Shown piece after piece: positions 2,667 to 52,248 of a stretch of 64,000 bases of DNA. Source of the stretch: Sporosarcina sp. P33. Its GTDB lineage: Bacteria; Bacillota; Bacilli; Bacillales_A; Planococcaceae. Under the pieces are notes generated by a model. The model made no database searches and had not been told where the DNA came from. It saw only the letters and a list, made by a program, of their open reading frames with translations. The DNA lies in assembly GCF_002077155.1 (NCBI RefSeq), contig NZ_CP015027.1, forward strand, positions 2,272,501 to 2,336,500, in the 5' to 3' direction. Within the stretch, counting starts at the first letter, position 1. Each line of letters opens with the position of its first letter. The position numbers and the translations under genes were made by a program.

Positions 2667-3083
2667 ATGGAAACGCCAAAACTGGACGTTCAACTCCGTT
2701 CTACTATTCAACACCCCGGACAGTCAGCGGAAACACATAATATGCAGGCGACGGGAAAGATTATTGAAAAAAAGGGACAGGCTTATTTATTGTTTGAAGA
2801 GCAGACAGAAGGAATGCCGGCAGTCCGAACGACAGTAAAATTACATGCAGACGATGCCTTCATCATGCGTAAGGGCGGCGTACAGATGCGGCTGCCATTC
2901 CGGCCGGACGATGTACGATTCGGGACGTACGGAAATGGACCAGCCGTCATGGATTTAGCCGTTCATACGAATGAGCTTCAATGGGAACCCGGACGTTTTG
3001 CGGTATCGTATGATTTACATTCAGAAGGAAATTTATTAGGAAAATATCAATTGACAATAACCTACTCGGAGGTAGCACAATGA
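2667..3083 (+). CDS. ywiB: DUF1934 family beta-barrel protein (YwiB-like)
   Basis: A 138-residue protein of the DUF1934/YwiB family, small predicted beta-barrel proteins of unknown biochemical role that sit directly upstream of argS in many Bacillales. The start at 2667 is preceded by AAGGCGGTGA at good spacing. The stop codon overlaps the argS start (ATGA-type overlap at 3080-3083), which indicates a two-gene operon with translational coupling. There is no signal peptide or membrane helix, so a cytoplasmic location is expected. The name comes from family resemblance and from the argS neighbourhood. Confidence 0.8.
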
Positions 3084-4747
3084 ATGCAGTAGAGCAGATT
3101 CAACATGAAATTAAAGAAGCATTAAAACAGGCAATTGAAAAATCGGGACTGGTGGAAGCTTCAGATATCCCGGAAATCAAACTGGAATCACCCAGAAGTA
3201 AAGAAAACGGTGATTATGCAGCGAATATCGCTATGCAGTTGACGAAACTGGCAAAAAAGCCGCCGCGCACAATCGCCGAAAGTATTTTGGAGCATCTTGA
3301 CACGTCTGATACAGCTATTCAGACCATTGAAATTGCAGGGCCCGGTTTCCTGAATATTCGGCTGAAAACAGACACCCTGGGCGATATCGTGAAATCTGTC
3401 CTTGATCAAGGAGAAGACTACGGCCGTTCTGACAGTGGCAAAAATGAGAAAATCCAAGTGGAATTCGTTTCAGCGAATCCAACAGGGGACCTGCATTTAG
3501 GCCATGCCCGCGGAGCTTCTCTAGGTGATTCATTATGTAATATTCTCGACAAAGCTGGCTATGACGTAGCACGCGAATACTATATCAATGACGCGGGAAA
3601 TCAAATCAATAACTTGGCGCTGTCAATCGATGTCCGCTATTTCGAAGCACTTGGCCTGGAAAAAGAAATGCCTGAAGACGGCTACCGCGGCGCAGATATC
3701 ATTACGATCGCAAAGGCTCTAGTCGATGAGCACGGCGACCGCTATGTAAACGTTCCGGAAGAAGAGCGTCTGGCATTTTTCCGTGAATACGGCTTAACTA
3801 TTGAGCTCGACAAACTGAAACAGGACTTGGAAGACTTCCGTGTTCATTTTGATAACTGGTTCTCAGAAACTTCATTATATCAAAACGGCAAAATCGAAGT
3901 TGCTTTGGAAAAGCTTCGTGAAAACGGCCATGTGTATGAAGAAGACGGCGCGACTTGGTTCCGTTCTACAACGTTTGGAGATGACAAAGACCGTGTGCTG
4001 ATCAAGCAAGACGGGTCATTCACCTATTTAACGCCGGATATCGCGTATCATGAAGACAAGCTTCGCCGCGGATTCGATAAACTTATCAACATCTGGGGAG
4101 CGGATCACCACGGCTATATTCCTCGTATGAAAGCGGCAATCCAGGCGCTTGGCTATGACCGCGATACGCTGGAAGTAGAAGTGGCGCAGATGGTTCAGCT
4201 TTATAAAGACGGAGAAAAGTTCAAAATGAGCAAACGCACAGGGAAAGCGGTCACGTTGCGTGAGCTTGTGGAAGAGGTAGGCCTTGACGCTGTCCGTTAC
4301 TTCTTCGCTATGCGTTCGGGTGATGCACAAATGGACTTTGACCTGGACTTGGCAGTTTCTAATTCCAATGAAAACCCCGTCTATTACGCACAGTACGCGC
4401 ACGCACGCATTTGCTCAATCCTGCGTCAGGCGAAAGAACAAAATATGCAGGCATCAACTGAACATGTCACGCTTTTGCAAGATGAAAAAGAATTGGAACT
4501 GCTGAAAAAACTGGGTGATTTCCCAAGACTGGTAAGCGATGCAGCACGTTTGCGCGCACCGCACCGGGTCACAACATACATCCAGGAACTGGCGGCTGCA
4601 TTCCACAGCTTCTATAACGCCAACAAAGTGCTGGATTCAGAAAACAAAGACTTGTCCGAAGCACGTCTGGCCCTCATTACTGCCACAAGCACGACAATTG
4701 CCAACGCATTGAAACTGGTAGGCGTTCAGGCACCGGAAAGAATGTAA
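3080..4747 (+). CDS. argS: Arginyl-tRNA synthetase
   Basis: A 555-residue class I aminoacyl-tRNA synthetase that charges tRNA-Arg with arginine using ATP. An N-terminal ArgRS-specific domain (about 1-110) is followed by the Rossmann catalytic core with the HIGH-class motif HLGH (around residue 138), the KMSK-class motif KMSKRTG (around 383), and a C-terminal all-helical anticodon-binding DALR domain. The length matches the Bacillus enzymes. The start is coupled to the ywiB stop and has AGGAGGT upstream inside ywiB coding sequence. A strong terminator follows at 4757. Confidence 0.97.
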
Positions 4748-5013: not shown

Positions 5014-5029
5014 AAGGTGCAATTACATA

Positions 5030-5190
5030 TCTTTCGAAAAGGTTCTCTTTCCTAGAGATGAAAATGGAAATCGGTTAAAATCCGATGCGGTCCCGCCACT
5101 GTAAGTGCACTGTGCACAAGCCAGGTCACCTGCCTTTAAGAAAAGAAGTTCCGCAGCAACCTACGAGGATAGGCACAGTGGGCGAAATCA
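5030..5190 (+). ncRNA. Cobalamin (B12) riboswitch
   Basis: The leader carries the conserved blocks of the adenosylcobalamin riboswitch: a GATGAAAATGGAAATCGG-like P3/J region, GGTCCCGCCACTGTAA (5089-5104), and the B12 box AGCCAGGTCACCTGCC (5119-5134). A further pairing segment follows, ending near ATAGGCACAGTGG. An intrinsic terminator lies directly downstream (5210-5237). This fits transcription attenuation: cobalamin binding favours the terminator and shuts off the btuF-pduO operon. Family assignment is by conserved motif. The exact ends are approximate. Confidence 0.93.
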
Positions 5191-14479: not shown

Positions 14480-15306
14480 AGGTTAAGTGATCAAAGAGTT
14501 GGGCTAAGCGCTCATACATCTGGGTCAAGCGCTCATACATCTGGCCAAGCGCTCATAGAGTCCGGTCAAGCGCTCATACCCCCTGGCTAAGTGATCATAA
14601 AGTCCGGTCAACCGCTCATACTCCCGAGTCAACCGCTCAAACCCCTTGGCCAAGCGATCATAAAGTCCGGCCAACCGCTCATACTCCCGGGTCAAGCGCT
14701 CATACCCCCTGGCCAAGCGATCATAAAGTCCGGCCAACCGCTCATACTCCCGGGTCAACCGCTCATACCCCCCCGGCCAAGCGATCATAAAGTCCGGCCA
14801 AGTGCTCATACTCCCGGGTCAAGCGCTCATACCCCCTGGCCAAGCGATCATAAAGTCCGGCCAACCGCTCATACCCCCTGGCTAAGTGATCATAAAGTCC
14901 GGTCAAGCGCTCATACTCCCGAGTCAACCGCTCAAACCCCCTGGCTAAGCGATCATAAAGTCCGGCCAAGTGCTCATACTCCCGGGTCAAGCGCTCATAC
15001 CCCCTGGCCAAGCGATCATAAAGTCCGGCCAACCGCTCAAACCCCCTGGCTAAGCGATCATAAAGTCCGGCCAAGCGCTCATACTCCCGAGTCAAGCGCT
15101 CATAGCCATTGGCCAAGCGATCATACCCCCCTGGCCAACCGATCATCCCCCTTGGCCAAGCGATCATAAAGTCCGGCCAAGCGCTCATACTCCCGAGTCA
15201 ACCGCTCAAACCCCTTGGCCAAGCGATCATAAAGTCCGGCCAACCGCTCATACTCCCGGGTCAAGCGCCCATACCCCCTGGCCAAGCGATCATAAAGTCC
15301 GGCCAA
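14480..15306 (+). repeat. 21-bp tandem repeat array B (left part)
   Basis: About 39 copies of the 21-bp monomer. Most are organised as 63-bp trimers with three distinguishable monomers: one ends in CTCCCG, one in CCCCCT, and one contains GATCATAAAGTC. The shared core is CAAGCGCTCATA or CAACCGCTCATA. It lies between the converging pduO and adh genes and continues beyond an inserted IS element at 16719-16844. On the - strand it reads as heptads of the type YERLxxx, which I regard as a by-product of the period. Confidence 0.93.
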
Positions 15307-15385
15307 CTGATGTTATTGTAAAAAACGTACACAAGGCTCTCATTATTGTTATAGTGAACCTAACTTAGAAAAGGACGTGTACGGC

Positions 15386-16718: not shown

Positions 16719-16844
16719 CAAGCGCTCATACTCCCGAGTCAACCGCTCAAACCCCCGAGTCAACCGCTCATAGCCCCCGGCCAACCGCCCATACTCCCGA
16801 GACAACCGCTCATCCCACCCCGCTCAACCGCTCAATCATCACAC
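16719..16844 (+). repeat. 21-bp tandem repeat array B (right remnant)
   Basis: Six monomers of the same 21-bp family as 14480-15306, now separated from the main array by the IS element. The monomers contain CAAGCGCTCATAC and CAACCGCTCAAAC with CCCGAGT linkers. The array runs right up to the stop codon of adh (- strand), so it abuts a coding end with no terminator between. Confidence 0.9.
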
Positions 16845-40572: not shown

Positions 40573-40720
40573 AATCAAGTACGGTTTTACTGTACACTGC
40601 ATATACGGCTGACACACACGGGCCGTGTACGGCATCGATCCGTTTTATTGGCAACTGGCCGATAAAACGCCTAAATTCATACTCTGTTCCAGATGGTTCA
40701 GGGCGAGAGGAGAGAGACCG

Positions 40721-41014: not shown

Positions 41015-41560
41015 GGACGCGACCGCTCATAACACATGCAGAAGCGCTCATACTAGTATGTGATCCGCTCAGTAAGCTGGGGTAAGCGCTCATAGCCGCG
41101 CGTGATCCGCTCATAAACTTGGCCAAGCGCTCATACCAACGCGCGATCCGCTCATAATCCCGGTCCAAGCGCTCATAGTTGCCCGCGATCCGCTCATTAA
41201 GCCGGGGTAAGTGATCATAGCTGCGCGCGATCCGCTCTAAAACCTGGTTAAGCGCTCATAGTTGCGCGTGATCCGCTCATAATCCCGGTTCAAGCGCTCA
41301 TAGCTGCACGCGATCCGCTCATAAACTTGGCCAAGCGCTCATAGCTGCGCGTGATCCGCTCATAAACTTGGCCAAGCGCTCATAGCCGCACGTGATCCGC
41401 TCATAAGCCCGGTTCAAGCGCTCATAGCCGCGCGTGATCCGCTCATAATCCCGGTTCAAGCGCTCATAGCCGCACGTGATCCGCTCATAAGCCCGATCCA
41501 AGCGCTCATACCAACGCGCGATCCGCTCATACAAGCAGATCAACCGCTCATAAACAAACA
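41015..41560 (+). repeat. 21-bp tandem repeat array C
   Basis: About 26 monomers arranged as 42-bp dimers: one half contains GATCCGCTCATAA and the other CAAGCGCTCATAG. It fills almost all of the interval between the rpmE terminator and the tdk start, in the same orientation as arrays A, B and D. Its dimer type differs from the other arrays. It ends about 50 bp ahead of tdk, so it lies within or next to the tdk upstream region. Confidence 0.93.
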
Positions 41561-46564: not shown

Positions 46565-47011
46565 ATGAATATTTATTTTATTTGTACAGGCAATACGTGC
46601 AGAAGTCCTTTAGCGGAGGCATTGCTTAATCATGCGAATGTACCCGGACTTACAGCGAAATCTGCAGGAATACACGCGATGGACGGCTTGCCGATTTCCG
46701 TAAATTCCGCACAATTGCTGACGGAAGCAGGGATTTCCTTTACACCCTATTCCAATGAACTCAAAGCGTCCGAGATGGAGTGGGCGGATCTCGTCCTGAC
46801 GATGACAGCAAGCCATCGGGATTTCCTGCACAGCCGTTTTCCTGAAATGAAAGAAAAAGTGTTTACATTAAAAGAGTATGCAGGTGCGGTGCCAGGAACC
46901 GACGTTCACGATCCGTACGGGGGGCATTTGGCTACATACCGCACGACATTCAATGAGCTGACAGAACTTATTGACTCAGTCATCCGGCAGCTAGCGGAGG
47001 GGAATTCATGA
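46565..47011 (+). CDS. ywlE: Protein-arginine-phosphatase (YwlE)
   Basis: 148 residues of the low-molecular-weight phosphatase fold. The P-loop is CTGNTCRS (from Cys7); the Thr within it is the feature that sets phosphoarginine phosphatases apart from tyrosine phosphatases. The aspartate general acid lies in VHDPYGG. It counters the McsB arginine kinase. AGGTGA precedes ATG 46565. It overlaps the chemotaxis receptor gene by 4 bases. Confidence 0.92.
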
Positions 47012-48300
47012 ATGAACCGAAAAAAGTGGGACTGCGGAAAAAGCTTGTATTATTTATAGTAATACTCGCAGTCATCACCTATACAACAAGTGCGGTCTTT
47101 ATTAATTGGGTGCAGCCAACGTTCTTCCCGAATGTAAAACCGTTCATCTTTCAGCTAGTAACGTACGCAATGGGCGTCATGTGGTCCGGAATTTTAGCGG
47201 CGCTGTTCAGCGTGATTTTAACAAAGCCGCTGCAGCGTCTTGAAACAGCCGCTATGCGGGTCGCGGACGGAAAGATCGGCACTGATATCGAACTGCCGAA
47301 TTCTTCGGATGAAATTCATTCCGTCTCCAGTGCATTCCAGCAAGTTGTCGTGAATTTGCGCAGCATTATCGAACAGATTGAATCCAATTTCCAGGCAACA
47401 GCGGAATCGGTCGACTCATTGACGAAAGAGACGAGCGCCGCGGCAGGACAGTCCGACGCCATTGCGCGGACCATCTCGGAAATTTCAAACGGAGCGGAAA
47501 ATACATCCGAAGCCATACGGGAAACGGTGCAGGCCATCGAAGATATCCGGCAGTTGGCGATGGAAGTCAATAACCGCGCAGATCAGTCGTCTGCACAATC
47601 CAAAATGATGCTGCGGGATTTGCATGCCACAACAGAAATTTTCCATTCCGTATTGGCGGGTATTCATCAAATGAGCGACCAAAGCGAGCATTCATTGGAA
47701 ACCATTCGGGTGCTCGATGAAAATGCGCATAAAATTGGAGAAATCGTGGAACTGGTCGGCAGCATTGCAGGCCAGACGAACTTGCTCGCACTAAACGCAT
47801 CCATCGAAGCGGCACGGGCTGGTGAACACGGCAAAGGATTCGCCGTAGTTGCAGAAGAAGTGCGCAATCTGGCAGACGAAAGCGCCAAAGCGGTCCAAAT
47901 GATTTCCGGACTGGTTCAGACAATCCAGGCTGACGTCAAACAAGTCGTTGCAGAAATGCATAAACAAGTGAAAACAGCCTCAACAGAAGCCGAACGCGCC
48001 ACCCAGACAAATGAAAATGTGGAAACGATGACAGCGACCATCCAGACCATGGCTCTCTTTGTGGAAGAAATCACGCAGATCGTCGGCAATCAGATGCAGA
48101 CTATCGAACGCACAGCCGCGCAATCCATGGAAGTTGCTTCGATTGCAGAGCACACATCAGCCGGCGCTGAAGAAGTGCGCGCCGCCACTGAAGAACAAGT
48201 GGCATCGATAGACCAGACCAAAACCAAGGCACTGGAGCTCAAAGAACAATCCGAGGAGCTGTACAAAGTCATCCGCAAATTCGACCGAACACCAGGCTGA
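47008..48300 (+). CDS. Methyl-accepting chemotaxis protein
   Basis: 430 residues. Two membrane helices (about 12-32 and 46-68) with only a very short external loop, then a HAMP region (about 70-122) and the MCP signalling domain with the hairpin tip [19 protein letters not shown]. It has no sizeable sensor domain, so it may sense inside the membrane or cytoplasm, or follow a partner protein. It starts in an ATGA overlap with ywlE. B. subtilis has no receptor at this place, so this is a lineage-specific addition to the ywl cluster. Confidence 0.93.
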
Positions 48301-48308
48301 AAAATAGG

Positions 48309-48344
48309 ACAACCCTGAGGCACTGCGCTTGGGGTTGTTTTTTT
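48309..48344 (+). terminator. Terminator after the chemotaxis receptor gene
   Basis: ACAACCC pairs with GGGTTGT, followed by seven T residues. It starts 8 bp after the stop codon. Confidence 0.88.
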
Positions 48345-48414
48345 GCATTATAACTGGATTACACCAGTTGCGGTCATTGTAGGGGGAGAAGGGGAACGTC
48401 ATTGGACTCACTGC

Positions 48415-48500
48415 GGCGCTGGCGGATGGCTTCCGCGATGAGCCAGACAGGAAGAGCGCCTGTCAGTCTCATCGCTACGCCGACCGCTTGTAAGGCGCCT
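48415..48500. repeat. Degenerate palindromic intergenic element
   Basis: GATGAGCCAGACAGG (48437-48451) pairs with CCTGTCAGTCTCATC (48459-48473), with outer GGCGC segments also complementary. It resembles the GC-rich palindromic repeats scattered through Bacillaceae genomes. It is non-coding. Confidence 0.6.
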
Positions 48501-48502
48501 CC

Positions 48503-48778
48503 GTTTAGTTAGGGGGAAGCAGATCATGACACTTCATTTGCCAAAGCATACGCCAGTCGTCAACCAGTCACTGCACTTCTTCTCTTTTAAAAAAGTACTT
48601 GGATTGTCTCCACTCAGCAGCGCAGGCACAACTGCGGGGTCGGCCGAAGTCATGAGACAACTGGCACGCTCTTCGCCAGCTGGCTCATGACGAAAGGCAA
48701 TCCCCCACGTGCCTGCGCGGATCCAAAGAGCGGACAGTTGCTAACTATAATACCCGACAATGAGTCGAGCAACGACCC
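48503..48778. repeat. ~275-bp foldback element, copy 1
   Basis: First of two imperfect direct copies. Within it GCGCAGGCAC (48620-48629) pairs with GTGCCTGCGC (48709-48718), and the interior GTCATGAGACAACTGGC pairs with GCCAGCTGGCTCATGAC, so about 100 nt can fold into one long hairpin. The flanking parts (CATTTGCCAAAGCATACGCC, CTTCTTCTCTTTTAAAAAAG, AAAGAGCGGACA) are also conserved between copies. I see no gene in it. Confidence 0.85.
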
Positions 48779-48822
48779 AAAAACCAGAGCTTGAACAGCA
48801 TTAAACTCACTGCTGTTTGTAA

Positions 48823-49097
48823 AGTTTAGGAAAAAGCGGATTATGACATATCATTTGCCAAAGCATACGCCAGTCGCTTAGTAGTCACTGAACTTCTTCT
48901 CTTTTAAAAAAGTAACCTAGCTTGCTTCCACTCAGCAGCGCAGGCACAACTGTGGGGTCGGCCGAAGTCATGAGACAACTGGCGCGCACTTTCGCCAGCT
49001 GGCTCATGACGAAAGGCAATCCCCCACGTGCCTGCGCGGGTCCAAAGAGCGGACACTCGCTAACTCCAACCCCCAACAACCAATCGAGCAACGGCCC
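48823..49097. repeat. ~275-bp foldback element, copy 2
   Basis: Second copy, in the same orientation. The hairpin arms are at 48938-48947 and 49028-49037 with the same inner palindrome. Differences from copy 1 are mostly point changes and small indels, several outside the stems. The 48301-49284 interval therefore holds a terminator, one palindrome and these two copies, and no gene I can support. Confidence 0.85.
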
Positions 49098-49284
49098 CCC
49101 AAAACTCTTCATTCCATAAAAAAGACGTACATTATATCAACTCCAACCCCGTAACATTCGCCTTTATAACGATAATTCACAAATAAAAAATGAGAAATTC
49201 AAAAGTTGTACACTAAAACCGATGATTTTTTTATCGAACAATGATAGAATAAGCGATAAGTAAAAATGGAAATGAGGGTGAACA

Positions 49285-49725
49285 GTGAAAGTAGCAATTT
49301 CTTCAGACCACGGAGGCAATAACCTCCGAAAAGAGATCACCAATCTATTAACCGAACTCGAGATAGAATACACCGACTACGGACCCGACTCCGGCGATTC
49401 CGTCGACTACCCTGACTATGCAGTACCGGTAGCCAACGCCGTCGTGGAAGGAAAAGCAGACCGCGGGATCCTGATTTGCGGCACGGGTATTGGCATGTCA
49501 ATCTCCGCCAATAAAGTCAAAGGCATTCGCTGTGCGCTCGTCCACGACGTATTCAGCGCAAAAGCAACACGCGGCCACAATGACTCCAACATCATCGCGA
49601 TGGGCGAGCGCGTAATTGGACCAGGGCTTGCACGTGAAATTGTCAGCACATGGCTTGAAACAGAATTTGAAGGCGGACGTCACGAGCGCCGCATCGAGAA
49701 AATGATGAAACTGGAAGAGAACTGA
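49285..49725 (+). CDS. rpiB: Ribose 5-phosphate isomerase B
   Basis: 146 residues of the RpiB/LacAB family. SSDHGG at the N-terminus, the catalytic Cys in GILICGTGIGMS and the GHNDSNI segment are present. It interconverts ribose 5-phosphate and ribulose 5-phosphate. The GTG at 49285 follows GAGGGTGA. It corresponds to ywlF of B. subtilis. Confidence 0.94.
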   Translation: MKVAISSDHGGNNLRKEITNLLTELEIEYTDYGPDSGDSVDYPDYAVPVANAVVEGKADRGILICGTGIGMSISANKVKGIRCALVHDVFSAKATRGHNDSNIIAMGERVIGPGLAREIVSTWLETEFEGGRHERRIEKMMKLEEN

Positions 49726-50344: not shown

Positions 50345-51598
50345 ATGGACTTAAGTAATGTACAGCGTGAAGATGCAGCAATTTATGAAGCAATCATGGC
50401 TGAAAAAAACCGTCAAAACTCAAACATCGAACTGATTGCATCTGAAAACTTCGTAACAGAAGCAGTTATGGAAGCACAAGGATCATACTTAACTAATAAA
50501 TATGCTGAAGGCTATCCAGGCAAGCGCTACTACGGCGGATGTGAGCATGTGGACGTGGTGGAAAACATCGCACGCGACCGTGTAAAAGAAATCTTCGGCG
50601 CAGCATATGCAAACGTACAGCCGCACTCCGGTGCACAGGCGAATATGGCAGTATACTTCACAGCCCTTGAGCCGGGCGACACAGTTCTTGGGATGAACCT
50701 TTCCCACGGCGGTCACTTGACGCACGGTTCACCGGTTAACTTCTCCGGAAAACTATATAATTTCGTAGAATACGGTGTAACTAAAGAAGAAGAGATGATT
50801 GATTACGAAGACGTTCGTCAAAAAGCACTTGAGCACAAACCAAAAATGATCGTTGCAGGTGCAAGTGCATACCCGCGTGAAATCGACTTTGCGAAATTCC
50901 GTGAAATTGCGGATGAAGTCGGTGCATACTTGATGGTGGATATGGCGCACATCGCAGGTCTTGTGGCAGCAGGCGAGCACTCAAATCCAGTGCCGCACGC
51001 ACACTTCGTGACATCTACTACGCATAAAACATTGCGTGGTCCACGTGGCGGTATCATTTTATTGAATGAAGAAACAGCTGAAGAATTCGGCAAGAAAATC
51101 GACAAAACTGTATTCCCAGGCGTTCAAGGCGGTCCTTTGATGCACGTAATCGCTGCAAAAGCGGTGGCATTCAAAGAAGTATTGGAGCCGGAATTTAAAA
51201 CCTATGCACAGCAAGTGAAGAAAAACGCGGAAGCATTGGCTAAAAAATTGCAGGAAGAAGGAATCGACGTCGTTTCAGGCGGCACAGATAACCACCTTGT
51301 CCTGGTAAAACTGAAATCACTTGACCTTACAGGTAAAGTGGCAGAGCACGTACTTGACGAAATCGGTATTACAGTAAACAAAAACACTGTACCATTCGAC
51401 ACAGAAGGACCATTCGTCACTTCCGGTATCCGTATCGGTACGCCAGCAGTCACAACTCGCGGCTTCAAAGAGGAAGACATGGTAGAAGTGGGACGCATCA
51501 TTGCAACTTTATTGAAAAACCACGAAGACCAGTCAGCAAAAGACGAAGCACGCAAAGCAGTTACAGCACTGACAGATCAGCACCCTCTATATAAGTAA
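50345..51598 (+). CDS. glyA: Serine hydroxymethyltransferase
   Basis: 417 residues. A PLP enzyme that converts serine and tetrahydrofolate to glycine and methylene-THF. The PLP lysine lies in [14 protein letters not shown] (around residue 226), and SENFVTEAV and [10 protein letters not shown] are typical. AAAGGGG precedes the ATG. It is followed by a strong terminator and then repeat array D. Confidence 0.97.
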
Positions 51599-51604
51599 TA
51601 AGCC

Positions 51605-51634
51605 AGCGCCCGACACCGTGTCGGGCGCTTTTTG
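51605..51634 (+). terminator. Terminator after glyA
   Basis: AGCGCCCGACA (51605-51615) pairs perfectly with TGTCGGGCGCT (51619-51629), followed by a T tract. Confidence 0.93.
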
Positions 51635-51695
51635 TCGGGATGATTTTGTGCAGGAGCCGTTGGGGCGGGGGAGTGCTTGGTTGTTTGGGATTAAT

Positions 51696-52135
51696 GCTCA
51701 AGCGCTCAACCCACATCGGGGACCGCTCATAGCCCACGTCCAAGCGCTCAATCCGTGTCCGCCAGCGCTCATAGCTCGTGGCCAAGCGCTCAATCCATGT
51801 CCGCCAGCGCTCAAAGCTCGCGTCCAAGCGCTCAACCCACCTCCGCCAGCGCTCATAGCCCGTAGCCAAGCGCTCAACCCACATCCGCCAGCGCTCATAG
51901 CCCGTGGCCAAGTGCTCAATCCATGTCCGCCACCGCTCATAACCCACGTCCAAGCGCTCAATCCACCTCCGCCAGCGCTCATAGCCCGTAGCCAAGCGCT
52001 CAACCCACGTCCAAGCGCTCAATCCACCTCCGCCACCGCTCATAACCCACGTCCAAGCGCTCAATCCACCTCCGCCAGCGCTCATAGCCCGCGTCCAAGC
52101 GCTCAACCCAAGTCCACAGTCAAACACTCACACCC
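51696..52135 (+). repeat. 21-bp tandem repeat array D
   Basis: About 21 monomers, mostly 42-bp dimers: CAAGCGCTCAAYCC in one half and AGCGCTCATAGC in the other. By eye it is much closer to array A than to B or C. One place (around 52000) lacks a half-unit, which points to slippage or unequal exchange at monomer level. Same orientation as the other three arrays. It lies between the glyA terminator and the upp promoter. Confidence 0.93.
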
Positions 52136-52248
52136 CATTCCAGCCCAACAATGACCATCCATCCGCCAAGTTTATCCAGCATCGAGAGACACTTTGCTCT
52201 TTCGTCACAACAATTCGTATATGTTCACTGCGCCTGTCGCGTGATTTC

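Follow-up and report, generated by a model that had tools for sequence, protein, structure and literature searches.

Most knowledge of REP and BIME elements comes from Gram-negative bacteria, and a role in chromosome organization has been proposed for the BIMEs of Escherichia coli. BOX elements are modular in make-up and vary in the number of modules that they carry. Many REP/BIME elements are tied to RAYT enzymes, and CGTC repeats lack a RAYT gene, according to the available part of PMC3733652.

Here, we describe a family of large, directional hairpins that form arrays in Sporosarcina and related genera, starting from one such array in the window, that is, the whole 64-kb stretch of Sporosarcina sp. 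P33 DNA that was analyzed. We lean towards reading the family as palindromic, non-autonomous elements of DNA in a BIME-like mosaic that is old, vertically inherited and homogenized within genomes.

Anatomy of the array

An MCP-like gene (47008-48300) lies on one side of the array and an rpiB-like gene (49285-49725) on the other, both named from their translations. The initial annotation had described two tandem copies of an element with a foldback and had seen no transposase. Indeed, two direct copies of a module that we call B occupy positions 48509-48778 and 48826-49097, are 87% identical and stand in a register of 317-319. Both copies fold back much more strongly than shuffled sequences, with z values of -3.7 (286 nt) and -3.9 (281 nt) as RNA and of -5.0 and -7.4 as DNA (107-108-nt cores); the stems are preserved in both, many of the differences fall in loops and flanks, and no transposase is evident in the neighboring ORFs, judged from their translations.

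We used a covariance model, R1, built from 53 B cores of seven genomes. Alignment A1 holds at most eight cores per genome, drawn at random from 119 unique ones (53 drawn), with the internally shortened row L087:1977-2075 left out and the first copy of the window added. The cores are mostly 96-110 nt long, and the unit is a directional palindrome of about 105 nt.

Read from the left, an intrinsic terminator-like hairpin (48306-48341, plus strand) lies 3' of the MCP-like gene and ahead of the array; the region scan gave two such sites against 1.5 expected from shuffles, which is not above chance. The left end of the array is hairpin A (48406-48508, minus strand), a member of the same family in reversed orientation, which R1 matches with 50.2 bits (E 1.2e-10) and which has a DNA fold z of -4.2 on the minus strand. 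A spacer (48509-48615, plus strand) leads from A to the first B. The spacer is alike among the arrays of the own genome, where most matches to the first copy span query positions 1-270, and far less so between species, the matches in relatives starting mostly at about query position 101-111, with a few at 59. The 107-nt core of B copy 1 (48616-48722, plus strand; R1 123.1 bits) has 31 consensus pairs and conserved internal loops, and is followed by a 3' tail (48723-48778, plus strand) with a GTCGAGC..CG motif that is conserved in the species consensus lines. The 47-bp gap between the B copies (48779-48825, plus strand), when compared by eye with an intact B-A-B spacer (L074), contains both edges of a second A hairpin with the middle missing. 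Next come a spacer-like stretch homologous to 48509-48615 (48826-48933, plus strand; repeat family D3) and the core of B copy 2 (48934-49041, plus strand; R1 125.5 bits, DNA z -7.4), which is the right end of the array and whose 3' tail (49042-49097, plus strand) ends where likeness to other copies stops.

Given the reversed hairpin upstream and the A edges in the 47-bp gap, the pair reads, from its sequence, as a degraded A-B-(A)-B array rather than as a plain duplication; the earlier description as a tandem pair is thus right for the two direct copies and too simple for the array as a whole. The ORF list has no ORF of 80 aa or more within the two copies, and a coding role was rejected; in copy 2, the ATG frame of copy 1 is interrupted by a stop at codon 13.

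Elsewhere in the window, a tandem repeat with 21/42-bp units and the sequence CGCTCA forms five stretches in the 64 kb (1-431, 14502-15307, 16719-16834, 41042-41552 and 51699-52110), and near 51561-52154 these repeats read as repetitive ORFs on both strands. Rfam matches place a cobalamin riboswitch at 5023-5151 and an L31-Firmicutes ribosomal protein leader at 40682-40712.

Copies and array order across the genome

The initial annotation had proposed to look for further copies in the genome, and these are plentiful. Profile searches with both modules found 67 A and 58 B hairpins, about 125 in total and at least five of them fragments of <60 bp, in 19 arrays that span 0.74% of the 3.235-Mb chromosome. 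A sequence search of the chromosome gave 48 same-strand matches in 18 clusters, plus two weak reverse-strand matches, and R1 added the nineteenth cluster. R1 yields 148 matches in the own genome, 57 of them above 60 bits, a number that is not an element count since it includes reverse-strand matches over the same palindromes. By simple ORF calls, all 19 arrays lie between ORFs, such that the family shares with REP/BIME elements the character of high-copy intergenic palindromes.

The arrays follow a regular order. All 19 begin with A and 18 end with B, mostly as A-B-A-B, often with one more A in front or one more B behind; arrays of relatives include A-A-A-B-B-B-B-B-B and A-A-B-B-B-B, and some sampled loci have B only. 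R1, which was built on B cores, also matches module A on the minus strand, and A and B are therefore one family in opposite orientation; opposite orientations inside clusters are another feature of REP/BIME elements. Two further genomes, G075 and G081, agree with this arrangement, with 17 of 36 neighbors back to back, 6 face to face and 13 on the same strand (p 0.004 versus one quarter).

In the own genome, the A side of the array adjoins a gene 3' end in 15 of 19 cases. A general place at gene 3' ends was rejected from counts in relatives: of 18 cases in G028 and G075, one is convergent and six are divergent, and of 48 in G075 and G081 the numbers are 14 convergent, 9 divergent and 25 co-directional (crude ORF calls).

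Fold, covariation and strand

Compensatory changes, which the initial annotation had named as a check on the fold, are clear in both the closer and the distant sets. In the closer set, 9 of 31 pairs show both-sided changes. In G075 and G081, neither of which contributed to R1 (85 matches, 83 distinct), 17 of 31 pairs do so, a count that 1 of 500 shuffles matched and for which the shuffled mean is already 13.6; the number of both-sided cells (244 versus 79 on average in shuffles) and the covariation score (0.276 versus 0.109), neither reached by any of 500 shuffles, are for this reason the stronger measures. Moreover, 92.2% of cells pair in G075 and G081, compared to 82.0% for shuffled and no more than 46.6% for slid controls, in an alignment that was fitted to R1 and is biased towards the structure of the model. 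The inner pairs 46-109 and 52-103 hold poorly in these two genomes, and 21-134 holds partly. Folding is under selection, and the covariation supports the fold as would be expected of a structured RNA; single-stranded DNA would give the same signal. Of the grounds on which the initial annotation would have given up its reading, a lack of other copies and a lack of covariation therefore do not apply.

In a folded single strand, G-T is more easily accommodated than A-C. Counted in element orientation, stem mismatches lean towards G-T over A-C in B (27:16 events, p 0.13) and in A (23:14, p 0.19), with p 0.03 for the two pooled, and in the distant set (15:5 columns, p 0.04). These counts are genome-column events in which related genomes are treated as independent, and they depend on the pairs kept: pairs with <60% Watson-Crick were dropped, a rule that also removed two A pairs where G-T is common, and the ratios are 35:16 and 29:14 with weak pairs included. 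All three leans, each of them weak, agree in direction, even though A and B lie on opposite chromosomal strands. We see in this a modest indication that selection acts on the strand of the element itself, be it DNA or RNA.

The main rival to the BIME-like DNA reading is a multi-copy structured RNA, the other option named in the initial annotation, whereby A and B would be transcribed and the conserved internal loops would bind a protein or act in cis on neighboring transcripts. The covariation in the closer set and in G075 and G081 fits this proposal, as do loop-side sequences such as CAACTGCGGGGT and GGCAATC that are conserved in the closer set, the lean of G-T over A-C in one orientation, and the fact that, of the 10 own arrays between co-directional genes, 7 point in the direction of transcription. 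What makes us doubt it is the opposite orientation of A and B, by which any transcript carries A or B antisense, together with the sequence around the array: there are no sigma-70-type promoter-like sites in 48290-49290 (0.6 expected), and a terminator-like hairpin stands ahead of the array, albeit at a frequency of such sites not above chance. Nor does the array match any Rfam family at gathering score, the three matches obtained lying far below it.

Distribution and orthologous sites

Within the genus, R1 has matches in 40 of 68 genomes, and within the GTDB family in 83 of 261, from 5 of 19 genera (both at E 0.01, some genomes by a single weak match). At the order level it matches 81 of 261 genomes at E 0.001, the genome number being the same as for the family, and at the class level 14 of 398 at E 1e-4, all 14 of them in the same family. 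Searches of more than 40 genomes used stricter filters, and for this reason absences are soft. In the sequence search of relatives with the first copy, G010 and G058, with matches of 35 and 27 bases, were not counted as carriers. An 18-base core pattern occurs, among the matches listed, in S. ureae, S. aquimarina, S. cascadiensis and Sporosarcina sp. P2, P13 and P32b, and is often repeated there; its matches in unrelated phyla, again among those listed, and in eight viral-contig stretches are likely chance. A phage or plasmid origin was rejected, with no match in the phage or plasmid collection. A literature search, judged mostly by titles, found no published description of the hairpin family, and the available part of PMC6006769 has nothing on this group.

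Many of the arrays are old residents of their sites. Of 18 arrays, 10 have a counterpart in a sampled relative next to an orthologous flanking gene, and for seven of them both flanks match by reading; this comparison excluded pairs with <50% identity and left out the nineteenth array. At the rpiB site of the window, R1 matches 7 of 30 loci, the own one included (30 fetched of 68 genomes with the gene). No clean empty site was found, the rpiB loci without the element being diverged or remnant-like. Apparent remnants, with the B hairpin gone and the edges kept, were seen by eye at this site in G018 (L300) and G030 (L298). Such sequences suggest that hairpins may get lost from arrays.

At the same time, copies resemble one another more by genome than by site. 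Their identity is 87.8% within a genome across sites (539 pairs) versus 74.4% for copies that share a site but not a genome (217 pairs). On a tree with 77 units, taken from 12 genomes, genome labels require 16 changes and site labels 48. This tree is partly resolved (39 of 74 inner branches <80); only G000, G012 and G079 form single groups, and G001, G018 and G019 intermix (6, 3 and 3 changes).

In the BIME-like mosaic that we favor, left-pointing A and right-pointing B subtypes stand back to back and are multiplied into arrays that start with A and nearly always end with B. The thing recognized by a protein would be one folded single strand, and the elements may once have spread in trans through a putative enzyme. 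What mainly keeps the copies alike today would be recombination or gene conversion among the arrays, or same-site turnover.

A more specific proposal, which is speculative and to which we give as little credence as to the structured RNA, is that the directional single-strand hairpins make up a self-contained population, whose own putative trans-acting enzyme rewrites copies at fixed chromosomal sites, old orthologous arrays being converted together in each species. If true, these would be site-stable, sequence-converting repeats, a system distinct from transposing REPINs.

Somewhat less likely again are double-stranded protein-binding sites for chromosome organization, recognized by gyrase, nucleoid proteins or condensin and multiplied and maintained through selection. 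The presence of arrays at orthologous positions in several species, the many copies dispersed over the chromosome and the invariant sequence blocks would all suit such sites; the both-sided changes and the G-T lean speak for a single folded strand and not for a duplex site, and 28 of 68 genus genomes are without a match at E 0.01 under the stricter filters.

Search for a mobilizer

A single RAYT-like gene is present in the own genome (NF047646, E 1.5e-21); its 76.8 bits fall slightly short of the curated cut-off of 80, which only 1 of 68 genomes reaches. At E 1e-5, RAYT-like matches occur in 40 of 68 genomes, namely 22 of 40 with the element and 18 of 28 without (Fisher p 0.47, genomes counted as independent of kinship). 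No RAYT-like gene was found in G089, G090, G075, G071, G072 and G031, which hold 24 to 90 R1 matches, and 20 RAYT loci gave no R1 match up to E 1.

That the family consists of REPINs mobilized by the one RAYT-like tyrosine transposase of the genome, as the inverted pairs of palindromes and the presence of that gene might suggest, is thus very improbable, with RAYT presence out of step with the element, rich genomes lacking RAYT, RAYT loci free of R1 matches and a different repeat 3' of several of them. The organization of the family works like that of BIMEs, and on two tested features the family falls outside the RAYT-linked REP families.

The different repeat (GAATTGTGTGGGGACCTGGTACC and variants) was seen by eye 3' of RAYT-like genes in at least 7 of the 20 loci (L234, L236-L238 and L240-L242). 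The GAATTGTGTGGGGACCTGGTACC repeat is a candidate for the REP that is cognate to a Gram-positive RAYT. The RAYT-like gene of the own genome (L233:3451-4104) adjoins two neighboring ORFs (1950-2912 and 2931-3488), which read like parts of a ComM/YifB-type gene.

A reverse transcriptase was rejected as mobilizer: PF00078 occurs in 47 of 68 genomes, and in none of the element-rich G030, G012, G028 and G081. Among the candidates RAYT and reverse transcriptase, then, no mobilizing enzyme was found in the 68 genus genomes. Circularly permuted group II introns, as presented in the available part of PMC8637638, were set aside for lack of resemblance.

Comparison with known repeat systems

The initial annotation had thought of a non-autonomous, MITE-like element. 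This was close in spirit, while the arrays are built like a REP/BIME-like mosaic in which hairpins are inverted. The Bacillus cereus element bcr1, named in PMC3733652 and PMC2267715, and other MITEs are likewise short, non-coding, multi-copy and foldable. MITEs are marked by terminal inverted repeats and target-site duplications, and the elements here stand apart as mosaics of two inverted subtypes. BOX elements of Streptococcus pneumoniae are, in what is accessible of PMC3049150, also structured intergenic repeats of a Gram-positive bacterium, and a variable number of modules is common to both. The present modules belong to a single family and are inverted, which sets them apart from BOX modules, compared by description only.

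REPINs share with the present family the inverted pairing of hairpin-forming repeats and the existence as a population within a genome, as described in the available sections of PMC8049555. Compared with that same partial account, each half is here a full hairpin of ~100 nt, there is no RAYT association, and old orthologous sites carry copies that are alike within the genome.

The closest likeness is to BIME/REP elements, which, in the part of PMC3733652 available, are many intergenic palindromes, often close together, oppositely oriented and clustered, with G-T pairs noted in their stems. Their unit in that text is 20-40 bp, with GTAG or CGTC palindromes, whereas the unit here is ~100-108 nt. 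The foot of the element is NNAGC with varying first bases; several genomes have GCAG or GTAG, G012 and G028 have neither, and no GTAG foot is conserved across species. GTAG REPs further differ in that the RAYT gene is flanked by the repeat, again by the available part of PMC3733652, compared to no RAYT link here. Moreover, the elements here were found in one Gram-positive family.

For annotation of repeats in Sporosarcina and its relatives, the R1 covariance model should be of direct use. The family would also lend itself well to the question whether such mosaics owe their persistence to transposition, to gene conversion or to a host function. Taken together, these hairpins would represent a Gram-positive counterpart of REP/BIME elements, with a large covarying hairpin, a fixed grammar of orientation, within-genome likeness at orthologous sites and no known mobilizer.
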